This document shows, in pieces, positions 34,507 through 40,185 of a stretch of 64,000 nt of DNA (its first letter is position 1; every line of letters starts with the position of its first letter). The notes below the pieces were generated by a model. It was not told the DNA's origin. It saw nothing but the letters and a program-made list of their open reading frames with translations, and made no database searches. The position numbers and the translations under genes are program-made. The stretch lies in contig NZ_JAGTAS010000051.1 of the NCBI RefSeq assembly GCF_025685425.1, positions 62,001 to 126,000 of the forward strand. The letters run 5' to 3'. This DNA comes from Terriglobus albidus. GTDB lineage: Bacteria; Acidobacteriota; Terriglobia; Terriglobales; Acidobacteriaceae.

Positions 34507-35469
34507 ATGCAACTACCCGATCTTGCAGTCATCAAAAAAGCGACAGAGATCGTCCGCTCCGTGATGCCGCCCACACCGCAGTACACCTGGCCATTGCTCA
34601 ATGCACGCACCGGCACTGAACTCTGGGTGAAACACGAAAATCACTCTCCGGTAGGCGCCTTCAAACTTCGCGGCGCAGCTGTGTATATGGACTGGCTGAA
34701 AAACAATCAGCCATCCGCGACAGGAGTCATTGCCGCAACACGCGGCAATCATGGACAAGGTGTAGCACTCGCGGCGACCCGCCTCGGGCTGAAGGCGGTG
34801 ATCGTCGTTCCCCACGGCAACAGCCGTGAAAAGAACCGGGCCATGGAAGCCCTGGGCGCCGAGTTGATCGAACACGGCGATGACTTCCAGGCATCACTGG
34901 AATACGCCATGCACCTGGCCGAAACCGAGGGCCTTCATTTCGTGCCATCGTTTCACCCATTGCTGGTGCACGGAACCAGCACTTATGCCCTCGAGTTTTT
35001 GACTGCCGTACCCGAACTCGAGGCGGTCTATCTGCCGATCGGAATGGGATCTTCGATCTGCGGCATGATTGCTGTTCGCAACGCCCTCGGATTGAAGACG
35101 AAGATTATCGGTGTGGTTGCCACGAAGGCCCCGGCATTTGCACGCTCCTTCCGCGAGAAGAAGGTCGTTCCTGCGTCAGCGAACTCACCGCTGGCCGATG
35201 GCCTCTCGTGCCGTGTGCCTGACGCAGAGGCTCTGGAGATCGCCCTCGCGAATGTCGATCACATTGTCGAAGTCGGCGAAGAAGAGATAGCCGCAGCCAT
35301 GCGCGCGTACTACCAGGACACCCACAACATCGCAGAAGGCGCAGGAGCAGCAGGACTGGCAGCCATCCTGCAGGAGAAAAATTCTCTGTCAGGTCAGCGT
35401 ATCGGTGTCGTGCTCACAGGCGGCAACGTCGACCAGGAACGCTTCATCGAAGCTTTGAGCGCAACCTGA
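34507..35469 (+). CDS. Threonine/serine dehydratase-like PLP enzyme
   Basis: 320 residues from ATG 34507 (MQLPDLAVIKKATEIV). Fold type II PLP enzyme: the Schiff-base Lys is in PVGAFKLRGA, the substrate loop is ATRGNHGQGVA, the phosphate-binding loop is PIGMGSSICG (the family usually has GGGGL here), and the C-terminal LTGGNVD positions the pyridine nitrogen. It lacks the ACT regulatory domain of biosynthetic IlvA, so it is catabolic or acts on hydroxy-aspartate or serine. The exact substrate is open. Confidence 0.85.
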   Translation: MQLPDLAVIKKATEIVRSVMPPTPQYTWPLLNARTGTELWVKHENHSPVGAFKLRGAAVYMDWLKNNQPSATGVIAATRGNHGQGVALAATRLGLKAVIVVPHGNSREKNRAMEALGAELIEHGDDFQASLEYAMHLAETEGLHFVPSFHPLLVHGTSTYALEFLTAVPELEAVYLPIGMGSSICGMIAVRNALGLKTKIIGVVATKAPAFARSFREKKVVPASANSPLADGLSCRVPDAEALEIALANVDHIVEVGEEEIAAAMRAYYQDTHNIAEGAGAAGLAAILQEKNSLSGQRIGVVLTGGNVDQERFIEALSAT

Positions 35470-35628
35470 GCTGTATCGACAAATTAGGTGAACCACTACA
35501 CCCGTTGCCCCATTCTTTCGCTGAAAGCGAAAGGGTCAGGCATCGCGCTTTGCGCGACCGCTTTTCATCAGCTCAGAAGCGATCGGCAGAGAAGCAAATT
35601 TCTCCGCTACGCTCCGAAATGACCAATT

Positions 35629-36018
35629 TCAATGCAGCCGCTTCTCCGGATGCAGATCATGACAAGCCGCACAGCTCTTCTGCAACGCCAGATAACTCTC
35701 CAACGCATGCTGTCTCTCGCCGCTCTTTGCCTGTGTACTGATCTTCTCCGCCAACTCAATCGTCTCCTGGTTGATCTTCAACACATCGTCAAAGCCCGGT
35801 TCTTTCCAAAGCGCCGTATCCTGCTGCAGCAATCTCACGATTTCACTACTCAGCGCTGCTGTCTTCGCACCATCTTTCGCATCCAGCGCATCACGCAGAT
35901 CGTCACGCGCATCCTGCAGCGTATCCATACGTGCACGCAGCTCCGCGAGCCTGTCAGCTGCTACAGCAGCCCCCAGCGTGGGGGCCGCCATCAGTGTGAG
36001 CATCCATAGACGTCGCAT
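35629..36018 (-). CDS. Cytochrome c'-like periplasmic protein
   Basis: 129 residues. The signal peptide ends near ADRLAE, then four mostly helical amphipathic stretches follow, and a single haem site CAACH lies near the C-terminus (Cys116-His120), the arrangement of class II cytochrome c'. Such proteins bind NO or CO, or carry electrons in the periplasm. It is the second gene after the uncharacterised secreted protein at 36034 (15 bp gap), so the two form one transcription unit, opposite to the DUF6152 operon. Confidence 0.78.
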   Translation of the reverse strand: MRRLWMLTLMAAPTLGAAVAADRLAELRARMDTLQDARDDLRDALDAKDGAKTAALSSEIVRLLQQDTALWKEPGFDDVLKINQETIELAEKISTQAKSGERQHALESYLALQKSCAACHDLHPEKRLH

Positions 36019-36033
36019 CGCGCTCCTCCATTA

Positions 36034-36927
36034 CTAGTCAGGAATCGACGTCACCGCCGGATGATCCTTGTCAGGCGGAGGCGGAAGCGGAGCGAGCTTG
36101 CCATAGCCACGCTGCCCATCCGGCCCGATCGGCCCAGGTCCCGGTCCAAGATGCGGCGCGTCCACATTGTCTTCCGCGCAAGAGTATTCCTTCACTTCAT
36201 CGCCCGGCTTACCCAACAGCCACGTTCGCTGATAGTGAACCGGCTCCGTATAGAACTTCGGATCTGTCACCGTCATGTCGACATGGATGTGGCCGATATC
36301 GGGCCGCGTCCAACGTTCGACCACATGCTGTTGATCGCTGTGTGGATTGGCATTCTCATCCGCCCAAGTCCGCTGCTCCTTGAACGCCGTAGAGTCGATC
36401 ACAAACGTATCCCCATCCCATGAGCCAATCTCCTCACCAAAGAACGACGGATCGGGATCTTCCGCATGCTTGCGGCCATCAAAGGGGACCAGCCGATAGG
36501 TCGTGTACCAGTAGAGAAAGACCGCATGGTCCGCACCCTGAAGCAACTGGAAGGGAAGTCCGCTTGCATTATGGCGTGGCAGACCTCCCACAATGCACAC
36601 CGCTTCCGGGTCGACCGTATGCTCCAGGTTGTACTTCAACGCGGCTTCACCGGCAGGCGTGAAGGGAAGCTTATATCCCGGATAATCCTTGCCCAGATTG
36701 CCCGTCGGCTTGTCTTTCTTCGATGGAATCCAGTAGCCCGAAAGATCCGGATGCCCATTCAGCCGCGGCGCCGGGCCTTTCGGCAGATCCGCTTCATTGC
36801 GCGAAAACGGTGAGTTCTCACGACCGGTCACATCCGGCGCCTTCTTTTGTTGCGCGGGCAAACCACCAGCGACAGAGAGACATACCGCAAGCGACACAGA
36901 TGCACGGAAACGCAGCATTGCTTTCAT
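36034..36927 (-). CDS. Uncharacterised secreted protein with NGHPDLSGYW motif
   Basis: 297 residues with a signal peptide (MKAMLRFRASVSLAVCLSVAGGLPAQ). The mature protein is rich in aromatic residues and acids: NGHPDLSGYWIPS near the N-terminus, FTPAGEAALKYNLEH, then VCIVGGLPRHN, FLYWYTTYRLVPFDGRKH, GEEIGSWDGDTFVIDST and HVVERWTRPDIGHIHVDMTVTDPKFY. I recognise this as a recurring acidobacterial type without known function. The many His, Trp and Asp residues and the cytochrome c'-like neighbour suggest a redox or metal role, which is inference only. Confidence 0.72.
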   Translation of the reverse strand: MKAMLRFRASVSLAVCLSVAGGLPAQQKKAPDVTGRENSPFSRNEADLPKGPAPRLNGHPDLSGYWIPSKKDKPTGNLGKDYPGYKLPFTPAGEAALKYNLEHTVDPEAVCIVGGLPRHNASGLPFQLLQGADHAVFLYWYTTYRLVPFDGRKHAEDPDPSFFGEEIGSWDGDTFVIDSTAFKEQRTWADENANPHSDQQHVVERWTRPDIGHIHVDMTVTDPKFYTEPVHYQRTWLLGKPGDEVKEYSCAEDNVDAPHLGPGPGPIGPDGQRGYGKLAPLPPPPDKDHPAVTSIPD

Positions 36928-37148
36928 CGCAAACCTTTCCAGCTGGCCTGAGACACAGCGGCACGCATGTATGGCCGTGCGCTGGGACAGACCCTTTTAC
37001 TTTGCTTGTTGAAGAGATTCAAGATGCTGGTTTCACAACCAGCAGACGCGAGGGCGCAGACTGTTTAGCAACAGGCGCAACAACAACGCATCTGTTCGAG
37101 CTGGTAGCGGCTGAACATGTGCAAACCGTAGAGCAATTTCTCTCACGA

Positions 37149-37169
37149 GTCAAGCACCCAATGCTTGAC
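37149..37169. promoter_or_regulatory. Palindromic operator overlapping a -35 box
   Basis: Perfect 8-bp inverted repeat GTCAAGCA / TGCTTGAC around a 5-bp centre CCCAA. The right arm covers most of the TTGACA at 37165-37170, so a bound regulator would compete with RNA polymerase. Confidence 0.55.
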
Positions 37170-37193
37170 AGTGCGTCAGCCTCAACTTAGAGT
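37165..37193 (+). promoter_or_regulatory. Sigma-70-type promoter of the cysteine leader
   Basis: TTGACA (37165-37170), exactly 17 bp, then TAGAGT (37188-37193). A start site 7 bp past the -10 box would be 37200, the A of the leader-peptide ATG, implying a leaderless transcript. Confidence 0.6.
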
Positions 37194-37199
37194 GCAACT

Positions 37200-37250
37200 A
37201 TGCATCCGCTCCGCACCATGCTTGGTTGTTGTTGCTCCCTCCATCGCTAA
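37200..37250 (+). CDS. Poly-cysteine leader peptide (attenuator uORF)
   Basis: 16-residue peptide MHPLRTMLGCCCSLHR with three consecutive Cys codons at 37227-37235 and its stop at 37248. It has no ribosome site; the predicted transcript begins at its AUG. Leaderless short ORFs with Cys runs are known in mycobacteria as cysteine-responsive attenuators, where ribosomes stall when charged tRNA-Cys is scarce. Here a matching antiterminator strand (37253-37260) and an intrinsic terminator (37336-37364) follow. The next gene downstream is the DUF6152 gene, beyond a MITE-like element. The call is inferred from layout, with no expression data. Confidence 0.55.
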   Translation: MHPLRTMLGCCCSLHR

Positions 37251-37335
37251 ATGGACGGGCGACGCACGCATCGGCGCGCAGGAATATGCTGAATTCACCG
37301 TAGATTTCAGCATCTCCTCACATCGCAAGGTTTAG

Positions 37336-37364
37336 AAGCCCGTTCCTCTCGGAAACGGGTTTTT
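37336..37364 (+). terminator. Intrinsic terminator / attenuator hairpin
   Basis: Stem CCCGTTCC / GGAAACGGG (one bulged A), loop TCTC, then TTTTTCGTTTT. No forward gene other than the leader peptide precedes it. Confidence 0.7.
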
Positions 37365-37369
37365 CGTTT

Positions 37370-37485
37370 TAGAGCATTTTCCCTGTAGGTGTAGAGTAGG
37401 GCTTCCGCATCTATGGGCGTTTTCCGCAATGAAAACGCCGCTGTACTCCTCTTCCGGGATACCCAGCAACAGGGAAAATGCTCTA
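37370..37485. repeat. MITE-like palindromic element, copy 2
   Basis: 116 bp with perfect 17-bp terminal inverted repeats (TAGAGCATTTTCCCTGT / ACAGGGAAAATGCTCTA) and the central hairpin GGCGTTTT..AAAACGCC. It begins at the T-run of the attenuator terminator and ends 31 bp before the DUF6152 start codon. It is the best-preserved of the three copies. Confidence 0.88.
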
Positions 37486-37516
37486 AGTCACATCCCAACA
37501 ACACAGGAAAGACACC

Positions 37517-37966
37517 ATGAAGAGCAGATTGCTTCTCTCATCTCTTGGTGCATTGGCGCTCGCATCCGCCAGTGCCTACGCCCATCACTCCTTCTCCGCC
37601 GAGTTCGACGGCAACAAGCCCGTTCGCCTGGTCGGCAAGCTCACGCGTGTCGAGTGGACTAATCCACACTCCTACTTCTACGTCGATGTCACCGATGCCA
37701 AAGGGGTCGTGAGCAATTGGGGATGCGAAGGTGCGGGTCCCGGAGCCCTGAGCCGCCGCGGTTTCAAGAAGGGCGACCTGAAGGTGGGTGACACTCTCGT
37801 CGTCGATGGCTATCGCGCCAAGGACGGATCGCACCTCATCGACGCACGCCGTGTCACACTTCCCGACGGCCGCAGCATCTACGGCGGAACGCCCGGCGAT
37901 GGCGGCCCCGGCGATGACGGCTCTGTTCAGGGAGCCTTGCCCAACACCGTGAAGCCCACGAAGTAA
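37517..37966 (+). CDS. DUF6152 secreted protein with mature N-terminal His-His
   Basis: 149 residues. The signal peptide has an AYA cleavage site after residue 22, so the mature protein should start HHSFSAEFD. The core (LVGKLTRVEWTNPHSYFYVDV ... LKVGDTLVVDGYRAKDG) looks like a small OB-fold barrel with a further His in TNPHS. The C-terminal tail is Gly/Asp-rich. DUF6152 has no known function. A free N-terminal His with a second His nearby recalls copper sites in CopC-type and LPMO proteins; that is inference. It starts an operon with two DUF6644 genes (5-bp and 10-bp gaps). Confidence 0.85.
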   Translation: MKSRLLLSSLGALALASASAYAHHSFSAEFDGNKPVRLVGKLTRVEWTNPHSYFYVDVTDAKGVVSNWGCEGAGPGALSRRGFKKGDLKVGDTLVVDGYRAKDGSHLIDARRVTLPDGRSIYGGTPGDGGPGDDGSVQGALPNTVKPTK

Positions 37967-37971
37967 CTCGA

Positions 37972-38469
37972 ATGGCCATGCCTCTGCTGCAGCACATCTG
38001 CCAGGTGATCTATGACTCGCAGATCGGAACACAGATCCGCGAGTCAGAAAACCTGTTCTCCATCATCGAATCTGTCCACGTACTCGCCATCACGCTGCTG
38101 GTCGGCACCATCGCCGTGCTCGATCTGCGCATGCTTGGTGTCGTGTTGCGCGAAGTCTCGGTCACACGCATCGCGCGCGCCGTCTTTCCACTCACGTGGT
38201 CCGGCTTCGGTGTGATGTTCGTCAGCGGCTTGCTGCTCTTCTGGGCGGAAGCGGCAAAGAACTATACAAACCCCGCCTTCCGCATCAAGCTCGTGCTGCT
38301 CGCTCTGGTGGGCCTGAACCCATTGATCTTTCACACCACGGTCTACCGCCGCGTACAGGAGTGGGAGACAGCCCGTTTCTCGCCCTGGCGTGCGCGTGCC
38401 GCCGCACTTGCTTCACTCACGCTCTGGTGCGGCATCATCGTCGCCGGCCGGGCGATCGCCTATTTCTGA
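37972..38469 (+). CDS. DUF6644 membrane protein (1)
   Basis: 165 residues with four hydrophobic helices. Helix 1 holds IIESVHVLAITLLVGTIAVLDLRMLG, a motif (ExxHxLA...DLRxLG) shared with the next gene. A second His sits in LNPLIFHTTVYRR. Conserved histidines in and at the edge of helices could bind haem or metal. It lies 5 bp after DUF6152 and 10 bp before its paralogue, so the three are one operon. Function is unknown. Confidence 0.82.
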   Translation: MAMPLLQHICQVIYDSQIGTQIRESENLFSIIESVHVLAITLLVGTIAVLDLRMLGVVLREVSVTRIARAVFPLTWSGFGVMFVSGLLLFWAEAAKNYTNPAFRIKLVLLALVGLNPLIFHTTVYRRVQEWETARFSPWRARAAALASLTLWCGIIVAGRAIAYF

Positions 38470-38479
38470 AAGGCTACGG

Positions 38480-38953
38480 ATGTCGCTTCGCCCCTGGTTT
38501 GTCGCTCTCGCTCATTCTTCGCTCGGGCAGTTCATGCAGAACTCGCGCTGGGGCTTTGCCGCCGTGGAAGCCGTGCACCTGCTGGCGCTTACACTACTCG
38601 GCGGCTCCGTTCTGGTGCTGGATCTCCGCCTGCTGGGTCTGATTCTGCGCCGCGAATCGCCACGCGTGCTGAACCGCGACCTCAGCCGCGTTCTGCTCAG
38701 CAGCCTGGCGATCCTGGTGTTGACAGGTGTCGCCCTGGTCTCAGAGGAGGCGTTGAAGTGCTATTACAACGCCGCCTTCCGCTGGAAGATGGCCCTGCTC
38801 GCCGCGGCCGTCCTCTTCTACTTCACCCTCTACCGCCGGGTCGTTCTTCGCCTGGCCAGCGCCGCGACCCTGGCCTCCCGCGTCACCGCGGTGATCTCGC
38901 TTTCCCTGTGGCTGGGGGTGGGTGTCGCCGGCCGTGCCATCGGGCTGATCTGA
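38480..38953 (+). CDS. DUF6644 membrane protein (2)
   Basis: 157 residues from ATG 38480, preceded by GAAAGG; the in-frame extension upstream overlaps the previous gene and is not family-like. Four helices share VEAVHLLALTLLGGSVLVLDLRLLG with its neighbour, and FYFTLYRRVV replaces the FHTTVYRR segment, so the second His is lost. Together the pair provide eight helices, like a split CopD-type membrane partner for the secreted DUF6152 protein, an idea based on layout alone. Confidence 0.82.
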   Translation: MSLRPWFVALAHSSLGQFMQNSRWGFAAVEAVHLLALTLLGGSVLVLDLRLLGLILRRESPRVLNRDLSRVLLSSLAILVLTGVALVSEEALKCYYNAAFRWKMALLAAAVLFYFTLYRRVVLRLASAATLASRVTAVISLSLWLGVGVAGRAIGLI

Positions 38954-38967
38954 CTCAAAACCTGACG

Positions 38968-39071
38968 CAAAACGGGTATGGTGCAAAAAAATTGACGCAA
39001 AAAGACGACAGGGGAGCGGTTCGTGAACCGCTCCCCCTCGTTCGTCTTAGTTCTGCGTCAAGCCCGTTTTG
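38968..39071. repeat. Nested 104-bp palindrome between convergent genes (includes bidirectional terminator)
   Basis: Four concentric arm pairs: CAAAACGGG/CCCGTTTTG (38968, 39063), TTGACGCA/TGCGTCAA (38992, 39054), AAGACGA/TCGTCTT (39002, 39042) and the core GGGGAGCGGTTC/GAACCGCTCCCC (39011-39022, 39025-39036). The core with T-rich DNA on its minus-strand exit is a good terminator for tatA; the outer arms exceed what termination needs. Confidence 0.8.
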
Positions 39072-39100
39072 ATCTTCAACGCGCCTGCGCGCGGGCCGGG

Positions 39101-39298
39101 TTACTTCGTCTCTTCGGGCTTCGGTGTGACGGCGTGCGTGTCCTTGGTGTCTTCGGTAACGCCCTTCATGCCTTCTTTGAAGCCGCGGAGACCTTCGCCA
39201 AGCCCCTTACCCAATTCCGGCAGCTTCTTGCCGCCAAAAAGAACAAGCGCGACGACCGCGACGACGATGAGGTGGGTAGGTGTGAATAGCTCGCCCAT
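39101..39298 (-). CDS. tatA: Twin-arginine translocase subunit TatA
   Basis: 65 residues from ATG 39298, with GGAG 7-8 nt upstream on its strand. A short periplasmic N-terminus with FTPTHLIVV, one transmembrane helix, the FGGKKLPELGKGLGEGLRGFKEG hinge and amphipathic helix, and an acidic tail. TatA forms the pore that exports folded proteins; the GH79, dienelactone hydrolase and MBL proteins in this window carry Tat-like leaders. tatB and tatC are not in the window. Confidence 0.93.
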   Translation of the reverse strand: MGELFTPTHLIVVAVVALVLFGGKKLPELGKGLGEGLRGFKEGMKGVTEDTKDTHAVTPKPEETK

Positions 39299-39408
39299 AA
39301 CTGTCTCCAGGAATCCTTGTTCTATTGTCGCATAAACCGCAGCCGGACGGACGCAGCGGCGTCCAACCGTTATATCTTGGAAGCTGCAGCTTTGCTGTCT
39401 GGAGGACC

Positions 39409-40185
39409 ATGCGACACGAAGTGACCCGGCGCGCACTTGCCGGGATGACCGCCCTGATTGCCACCACCCTGCTCTCCGCCACTATGGCAGCCCAGACTCC
39501 GGCCTCTACCAGTGGCCAGACGAGTGGATCGGCAGCCCCGGCCCAGCCCTCGCAGACGCAACCGTCGCAGCCAGGAACAGCTCCGAAACGCAACATTCAG
39601 TTCGCCCGCCGCATTCCCGTCACCTATGACAACCGGTGGGACGTATACGGCGGCCTTAACTTCATGAACGGCCAGGCCGGCCAGAACCTGCCCAAGCGCT
39701 ACAACATGGGCGGCCTCGAAGGCCAGGCGACTTACTGGCTGACCGACCGCATTGGACCGGCGGTCGACTTCCGCGTCGACTACGGCACCACTCCGGTCTT
39801 CCCGAATACCTTCCAGATCAACCGTCCGGTGGTCCGCCAGATTATCGGTATGGGCGGCGTGCAGTACCGGGGATGGAAGAACCAGCGCTTTGCTATCCAG
39901 TACCACGGCCTGGTGGGCGTCGGCGCCGGCAAGTTTGATGGCGGCACCCTGGGCGGCGTCAACGCTCCCAGCCACAACGCTGCCGCCAACGCCGTTGCTG
40001 TAGGTCTCTACTCCAATCGCGTGAAGCCGGTAGGCGCCTTCGGCGGCTCGCTGGACATCAACGGCAGCTACCGCTGGGCGATACGCCTGCAGCCGGACCT
40101 GATCGTGGAGCATTACGGTACCGAGTACCGCGAGTTCTTCTCCATCTCCGGCGGTCTGGTGTGGCGCTTCGGCCATCGCCAGTAG
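39409..40185 (+). CDS. Outer-membrane beta-barrel protein
   Basis: 258 residues from ATG 39409 with GGAGG just upstream. The signal peptide (MRHEVTRRALAGMTALIATTLLSATMAAQ) is followed by a low-complexity Ser/Thr/Gln/Pro linker, then alternating strands in the OmpA-like small-barrel pattern (WDVYGGLNFMNGQAGQNLPKRY, GPAVDFRVDYGTT, AIQYHGLVGVGAG, YRWAIRLQPDLIVEHYGTE). It ends in RFGHRQ rather than an aromatic residue, which is unusual. The role is unknown. A terminator follows at 40197. Confidence 0.75.
   Translation: MRHEVTRRALAGMTALIATTLLSATMAAQTPASTSGQTSGSAAPAQPSQTQPSQPGTAPKRNIQFARRIPVTYDNRWDVYGGLNFMNGQAGQNLPKRYNMGGLEGQATYWLTDRIGPAVDFRVDYGTTPVFPNTFQINRPVVRQIIGMGGVQYRGWKNQRFAIQYHGLVGVGAGKFDGGTLGGVNAPSHNAAANAVAVGLYSNRVKPVGAFGGSLDINGSYRWAIRLQPDLIVEHYGTEYREFFSISGGLVWRFGHRQ

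Follow-up and report, generated by a model that had tools for sequence, protein, structure and literature searches.

The locus lies within the window, by which we mean the whole stretch of 64,000 nucleotides of Terriglobus albidus DNA that was analysed. It consists of two gene sets pointing away from each other, each preceded by a short leader open reading frame (sORF) rich in cysteine codons. The promoters, sORFs, genes and repeat are as follows, with the basis of each assignment in brackets.

36034..36927, minus strand: 297-aa exported-looking protein of the HPDLSGYW family, behind the minus leader (without Pfam or NCBIfam match)
37065..37118, minus strand: second leaderless sORF, MFSRYQLEQMRCCCACC and a stop, Cys codons at 37085-37077 and 37073-37068 (sequence reading, twin loci)
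37125..37153, minus strand: minus-leader promoter, TTGACT-N17-TACGGT (sequence reading)
37165..37193, plus strand: plus-leader promoter, TTGACA-N17-TAGAGT (position check, sigma-70-like scan)
37200..37250, plus strand: leaderless sORF of 16 codons, MHPLRTMLGCCCSLHR and a stop (position check, comparison of 13 distinct twin loci)
37369..37486, no strand assigned: dispersed repeat of about 118 bp with 23-bp inverted ends, between the plus terminator and the DUF6152 gene (genome matches, locus alignment)
37517..37966, plus strand: DUF6152 protein, encoded by the gene that opens the plus operon (PF19649, E 3.8e-28)
37972..38469, plus strand: DUF6644 membrane protein (domain search)
38390..38953, plus strand: second DUF6644 membrane protein, whose true start is probably inside the ORF (domain search)

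In the plus leader, the -35 box TTGACA (37165-37170) is followed by a 17-nt spacer, the -10 box TAGAGT (37188-37193), six bases and an ATG at 37200, and the Cys codons of the sORF, TGT TGT TGC, occupy 37227-37235. These are the promoter, start codon and CCC-encoding sORF proposed in an initial annotation made from the sequence alone, and a position check returned the same coordinates for all of them. A scan of positions 36500-38500, in which 0.7 matches were expected by chance, gave two sigma-70-like matches, and this promoter scored higher than the other, with 10/12. Two sORF starts in the window have a leaderless promoter score of at least 9, and the plus sORF is the one with the Cys run. 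Moreover, TTGACA, most of the -10 box and the ATG are invariant columns across seven loci of the same genus. A search of 35000-40000 with the Rfam covariance models for riboswitches, T-boxes and other leaders returned no match up to an E value of 1.

The minus leader repeats this design, with TACGGT, six bases and an ATG at 37118, and its sORF points toward the gene at 36927-36034. The two leaderless starts (37118, minus; 37200, plus) are 82 bp apart and their -35 boxes stand back to back, with 11 bp between them. Judged from sequence spacing, the distance from promoter to ATG is compatible, in both leaders and at the twin loci, with a transcript whose first base is the A of the ATG. An intrinsic terminator was looked for after the minus leader and none was seen. 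The initial annotation covered the plus leader alone; its minus-strand twin, and the probable regulon described below, had been overlooked.

We know of no sulfur role for DUF6152, DUF6644 or the HPDLSGYW protein. A paper search found no literature on DUF6152, NCBIfam gave no match for six window proteins, and AlphaFold2, given a 10-row alignment for the 297-aa protein behind the minus leader, produced a model with a mean pLDDT of 35.8 and no usable fold. The repeat has 57 matches in the genome, including the copy at 37369-37486, some of them in tandem, and two of the related loci (G012 and G002) have an empty site where it sits in the window.

Conservation of the leader pair and its cysteine codons

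DUF6152 was found in 15 of the 101 genomes searched, seven of the 15 being from the window's genus. Both divergent Cys-rich leaders are present at all seven same-genus DUF6152 loci and the pair is absent from all 23 DUF6152 loci read from other genomes. Among 40 DUF6152 loci from named-genome contigs, seven have the pair, one of them repeating a same-genus locus, and 33 lack it. This gives 13 distinct twin loci, including those of Granulicella sp. S156 and L60, Granulicella paludicola and Occallatibacter savannae. A distance of 77-84 bp separates the two starts in 11 of the 13; extra DNA in G012 and G002 widens it to 370 and 408 bp. The leader peptides diverge from locus to locus (MHPLRTMLGCCCSLHR, MADIQALLCCCYSLLS, MFSLAASRCCRCSLPLEWTSACARL, MIPSQQARCCNTLSLSRCCAHLCR) with the promoter, the ATG and the Cys cluster kept. 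Loss of the Cys run in relatives was to have counted against the initial annotation; what we found is that the Cys cluster recurs, together with the leaderless promoter and the hairpin, at 13 distinct loci that are not phylogenetically independent, as CCC in seven of the plus leaders and as CC, not CCC, in the other six.

As a separate observation, four genomes (G078, G084, G091 and G098) carry large families of DUF6152 paralogues, with at least 38 matches per genome, and those of their loci that were read (among L028-L049) are without the leader pair.

The window's own genome contains 19 matches to the leaderless pattern, compared with six for a reversed control, and at six of the 19 the sORF has a Cys run. 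The reading frame was examined after 46 distinct leaderless-pattern starts, which comprise only the loci fetched by that pattern and, for the same genus, starts among the matches listed: within 90 nt, the motif TGYTGY occurs 48 times in frame 0 and never in the other frames. Likewise, Cys-Cys is encoded by 18 of 27 leaderless-pattern sORFs of 6-45 codons versus 102 of 1978 background sORFs. Thus, by its reading frame, the Cys run is a coding feature, not a DNA motif, and the leaders have the contiguous, in-frame, conserved Cys codons that are the mark of the mycobacterial type. Codon choice differs as well: 38 leaders, many of them related by descent, use TGT 102 times and TGC 44 times, as against 32 and 117 times in the long ORFs of the window.

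Leaderless genes seem to be common in this genome. At three further loci in it (L004, L007 and L010) the leaderless genes are longer and repressor-like (BlaI/ArsR-like, by eye), with palindromes between the -35 and -10 boxes. For Acidobacteria, the excerpts of a genome survey give a predicted share of leaderless genes of 13.3 % on average, in three genomes (PMC3160421).

Sister leaders and the genes behind them

Leaders of the same kind stand before sulfur genes. First, cysD, a gene of sulfate assimilation, was recognised in 31 of the 46 loci examined, the other 15 yielding no cysD, and a sORF with Cys-Cys lies upstream of it in 25 of the 26 loci from the window's family and in none of the five from outside it. 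The strict leaderless spacing from the -10 box is present in nine of these 25 leaders; in several same-genus cysD leaders the -10 box is, by eye, a few bases farther off or the start is GTG. No obvious intrinsic terminator was visible by eye in the cysD leaders, after which come pyrimidine-rich stretches. Second, among 20 matches to the YeiH-type transporter (PF03601), a family with a putative role in the export of sulfur compounds, eight have a strict leaderless leader, each with a hairpin and a T-rich tail. The other 12 divide evenly into those without such a sORF and those that have one (CC, at least three Cys) but do not reach a promoter score of 7; in the latter group CCC is confined to L178 and L184. 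Third, a fusion of a cysteine-dioxygenase-like (CDO_I) and a Rhodanese domain, identified by Pfam at L055 only, is preceded at L055, L070 and L081 by leaderless Cys-rich sORFs such as MAFPLLHCCRCDLPLVG, and a Cys/Met PLP enzyme (Cys_Met_Meta_PP) is the second ORF, behind a small one, downstream of another leader. On this sequence evidence, the Cys-run leaders look like a regulon that includes sulfur genes.

Further leaders precede AhpC/TSA-type, CHRD, GidA-type and outer-membrane barrel proteins, all four without an obvious sulfur link. Individual cases are a leaderless Cys-run sORF before a GidA-family protein (L063, 1536, plus strand), another before an outer-membrane barrel protein (L069, 1503, minus strand), and a third before a protein gene upstream of what we read as an Rhs-like ORF, again without an obvious sulfur link (L012, 1536, plus strand).

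These associations bear on two other explanations. That the element is a coincidence of a random promoter-like sequence and Cys codons beside an ordinary terminator seems hardly credible: promoter-like matches do arise by chance, as expected in the 2-kb scan, and 118 of 920 random 330-nt stretches from the cysD loci contain a CC sORF, as against the 25 of 26 above, but this explanation is already contradicted by the conservation at 13 loci, by the 48 of 48 runs in frame and by the association with cysD. Quite improbable, in our view, is that the Cys-rich nascent peptide senses a metal such as copper, or the redox state, and not the charging of tRNA-Cys. Cys clusters can bind metals or become oxidised, as this explanation would have it. 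The number and spacing of the Cys residues vary, however (CCC, CCCC, CC..CC), and little else is conserved across clades; the leaders favour TGT, a codon rare in the window ORFs; and the sister leaders stand before cysD and the CDO-rhodanese fusion. A redox role has been floated for the mycobacterial leaders too, in the available portion of one paper (PMC4633059).

Most of the proteins behind the leaders are, against an imperfect control, low in sulfur amino acids. In 14 of them Cys and Met together make up 0-2.5 % of residues versus a median of 2.96 % in 38 long non-overlapping ORFs of the window (p 4e-6); the three that are not low are the two DUF6644 proteins and that of L012. The 11 leader-bearing DUF6152 proteins recovered have no Met at all, compared with a mean of 1.5 in 43 others, in a count for which 15 of 69 loci, two of them leader-bearing (L080 and L081), gave no protein. 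Cys is more frequent in the leader-bearing DUF6152 proteins, at 1 versus 0.35. The equivalent comparison for YeiH recovered one of eight leader-free proteins, from a locus that itself has a Cys-run sORF. The low Cys and Met content suggests sulfur sparing. Depletion of Met and Cys was dropped as a proof of sulfur starvation, and kept as suggestive, since close leader-free DUF6152 relatives (L084, L085, L087 and L090) are equally devoid of Met; the low Met content may instead come from export or ancestry.

Architecture of the plus-leader RNA

None of 200 dinucleotide shuffles folds as well as the 173-nt plus leader (z -3.45). Four elements were recognised in it, on the plus strand.

37231..37263: protector helix 1:2, formed by 37231-37244, from the Cys codons through His, and 37251-37263 (fold prediction)
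37253..37260: proposed antiterminator strand 2, GGACGGGC, 3-10 nt after the stop (duplex energy)
37280..37318: hairpin linking strand 2 to strand 3 (fold prediction)
37335..37370: intrinsic terminator hairpin and T-rich tract, strand 3 at 37338-37346 and strand 4 at 37351-37359 (folding, comparison of 13 loci)

As the initial annotation had it, the linking hairpin of 8 bp is present (37286-37293 with 37306-37313), and so is the stem-loop with its T-run at 37335-37370. A simple consensus terminator scan of 36500-38500 reported none, which a one-base bulge in the stem probably explains. The terminator hairpin has a predicted energy of -14.7 kcal/mol (RNAfold; z -3.5 against mononucleotide shuffles), and with its T-run it stands as a 3:4 terminator before the first gene of the operon, DUF6152. 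All 13 distinct twin loci have a hairpin at this place, with z between -1.8 and -7.9. Two-sided substitutions that keep the pair occur, in at least one locus, in 10 of 11 stem columns; four of the 10 depend on the divergent G003 alone, and reading the pairs off minimum-energy folds biases the count towards pairing. The T-tail rule is passed by 11 of the 13, the exceptions being G003 and L080.

The protector helix has z -1.9 when the window stretch is taken alone. Similar hairpins are predicted in most loci but are modest one by one: z is -2 or lower in only five of the 13 leaders, the window's not among them. An RNAalifold consensus of the seven leaders of the 16-codon type consists of the terminator and a polyCys:GGACGG helix, with two-sided changes in six of 19 pairs.

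The antiterminator is more restricted. In the window, GGACGGGC (37253-37260) can pair over 8 bp, with one G-U, with GCCCGTTC (37338-37345) in the arm of the terminator, just as the initial annotation drew it; the duplex is predicted at -16.0 kcal/mol, and 0.8 % of 500 mononucleotide shuffles are as good. In the window clade (G000, G012 and G002) the pairing GGACGGGC:GCCCGUUC is equalled by 0.8-1.6 % of such shuffles. Two other loci, L024 and L088, are at 4 %, and the other eight miss the 5 % level. Over 11 clade representatives, eight of which do no better than shuffles at the 5 % level, the combined p is 0.018, or 0.10 when the window clade is excluded, and in the YeiH leaders about 9 % of shuffles or more do as well as any pairing. 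By these comparisons the antiterminator has good support in the window's clade alone.

The plus hairpin also bears on whether the leader might act in the mycobacterial manner, with the progress of the ribosome through the poly-Cys ORF gating the downstream ribosome-binding site and the hairpin being incidental. We consider this unlikely for the plus leader, in which all 13 loci keep the hairpin, with substitutions on both sides of the stem, and the DUF6152 start lies, among the twin loci, 99-266 nt beyond the stop of the sORF; the eight strict YeiH leaders carry a terminator too. It does have in its favour the minus and cysD leaders, which are without a visible intrinsic terminator, and the excerpts of two papers that describe the known mycobacterial leaderless poly-Cys leaders as translational attenuators (PMC9031893, PMC13236596).

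A model for cysteine sensing and its relation to known attenuators

Our preferred reading, to which we give a probability of roughly three in four, is that the twin is a divergent pair of cysteine-responsive leader-peptide attenuators in a family-wide sulfur regulon, the plus arm probably being a trp-like transcription attenuator. We infer the start site, the stalling, the cysteine response and the read-through from the features above, as follows. The two back-to-back promoters would fire outward, each transcript beginning on or beside the AUG of a very short Cys-rich ORF. With plentiful cysteine, the ribosome would pass the three Cys codons of the plus sORF, reach the stop at 37248-37250 and cover strand 2 (37251-37263), upon which the terminator 3:4 (37335-37363) could form and RNA polymerase would stop short of the DUF6152 operon. 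When little tRNA-Cys is charged, the ribosome would stall at 37227-37235 and mask strand 1, leaving strand 2 to pair with the 5' arm of the terminator and permitting read-through. In an untranslated leader the Cys codons would pair with strand 2 in the protector helix, and termination would be the default.

The minus leader would sense the same signal. No intrinsic terminator is visible in it or in the cysD leaders, for which translation attenuation or Rho is the probable means of control, and one mechanism therefore does not cover all leaders. The cysteine-responsive attenuator of the initial annotation largely holds up, with support from the conservation at 13 loci and from the sulfur genes behind sister leaders. 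That attenuation under leader-peptide control depends on Rho throughout is rather unlikely, as it would not account for the terminator hairpins that the plus leaders conserve; the pyrimidine-rich stretches without obvious terminators seen by eye after the cysD leaders do fit it, and the same idea was once proposed for actinobacterial cys leaders, according to the portion of that study available (PMC1262725).

Canestrari et al. reportedly described, in 2020, leaderless polycysteine sORF attenuators of mycobacteria. The leaders at hand resemble these in their predicted leaderless start, taken from promoter spacing, in the run of Cys codons, in the position before cysteine or sulfur genes and, presumably, in sensing by the speed of the ribosome on Cys codons. 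The position before such genes holds for sister leaders (cysD and CDO-rhodanese) and not for the window's own targets, which are without known sulfur role. They differ in belonging to another phylum, in the conserved terminator hairpin and Cys-codon protector helix of the plus leader, and in the divergent twin layout. Translational attenuation without an intrinsic terminator, as in the mycobacterial type, does not describe the plus leader; the minus leader shows no such terminator. In the portion of another paper available, leaderless poly-Cys leaders of mycobacteria are given as candidates (PMC4633059).

Candidate leader peptides of actinobacterial cys operons, for which the excerpts of Seliverstov et al. 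(2005) note no obvious terminators, are likewise short ORFs that precede those operons and have Cys runs close to their stop codons, and the acidobacterial cysD leaders share with them the lack of an obvious terminator; the DUF6152 and YeiH leaders differ in having intrinsic terminators, in a comparison made with those excerpts (PMC1262725).

The third relevant class may be illustrated by the ilvB1 leader, a case of trp/his/ilv-type transcription attenuation in the excerpts of one paper (PMC13236596). The plus leader resembles this class in having control codons in strand 1, a predicted protector 1:2, a proposed 2:3 pairing, a terminator 3:4 and a stop just before strand 2. It differs in its predicted leaderless initiation, its presumed cysteine signal, its targets of no known function and a 2:3 pairing that is clear only in the window clade. 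Attenuators of the trp/his/ilv type have their control codons in strand 1, with 1:2 as protector, 2:3 as antiterminator and 3:4 as terminator. An operon making the sensed amino acid was not found at the window, where the operons are DUF6152/DUF6644 and the HPDLSGYW-family protein. By the features compared, then, the element would sense like the mycobacterial leaders, its plus arm would act like a trp attenuator, and it appears to be a full member of neither class.

Among the top-ranked results of a literature search over open-licence papers, we found no description of an acidobacterial poly-Cys attenuator, in agreement with the initial annotation, which knew of no such case; the portion of a Granulicella WH15 omics paper at hand contains neither 'cysteine' nor 'sulfate'. 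It is an even bet, in our judgement, that Acidobacteriaceae possess a sulfur-starvation regulon sensed by leaderless poly-Cys attenuators at cysDNH, a transporter, the CDO-rhodanese fusion and very Cys/Met-poor exported proteins, that some of these are true transcription attenuators, two divergent ones sharing about 80 bp, and that the system either originated independently of the actinobacterial one or greatly predates it. If so, leaderless cysteine-responsive attenuation would extend from Actinobacteria to a major soil phylum and would gain a form with an intrinsic terminator as well as a twin layout of divergent leaders; a soil acidobacterium would turn on two adjacent, opposite gene sets when short of cysteine; and a leaderless sORF with a Cys run would provide a sequence handle for sulfur-starvation genes without a known function, such as those of DUF6152, DUF6644 and CHRD proteins.

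Outside the window's family, a possible case is the leaderless-looking Cys-rich sORF MATENARTRFSTIMCCAGPCGCSGAAVCLPSGAQERR, which lies 140 nt before a cysH-like ORF (L152, 2387, minus strand).
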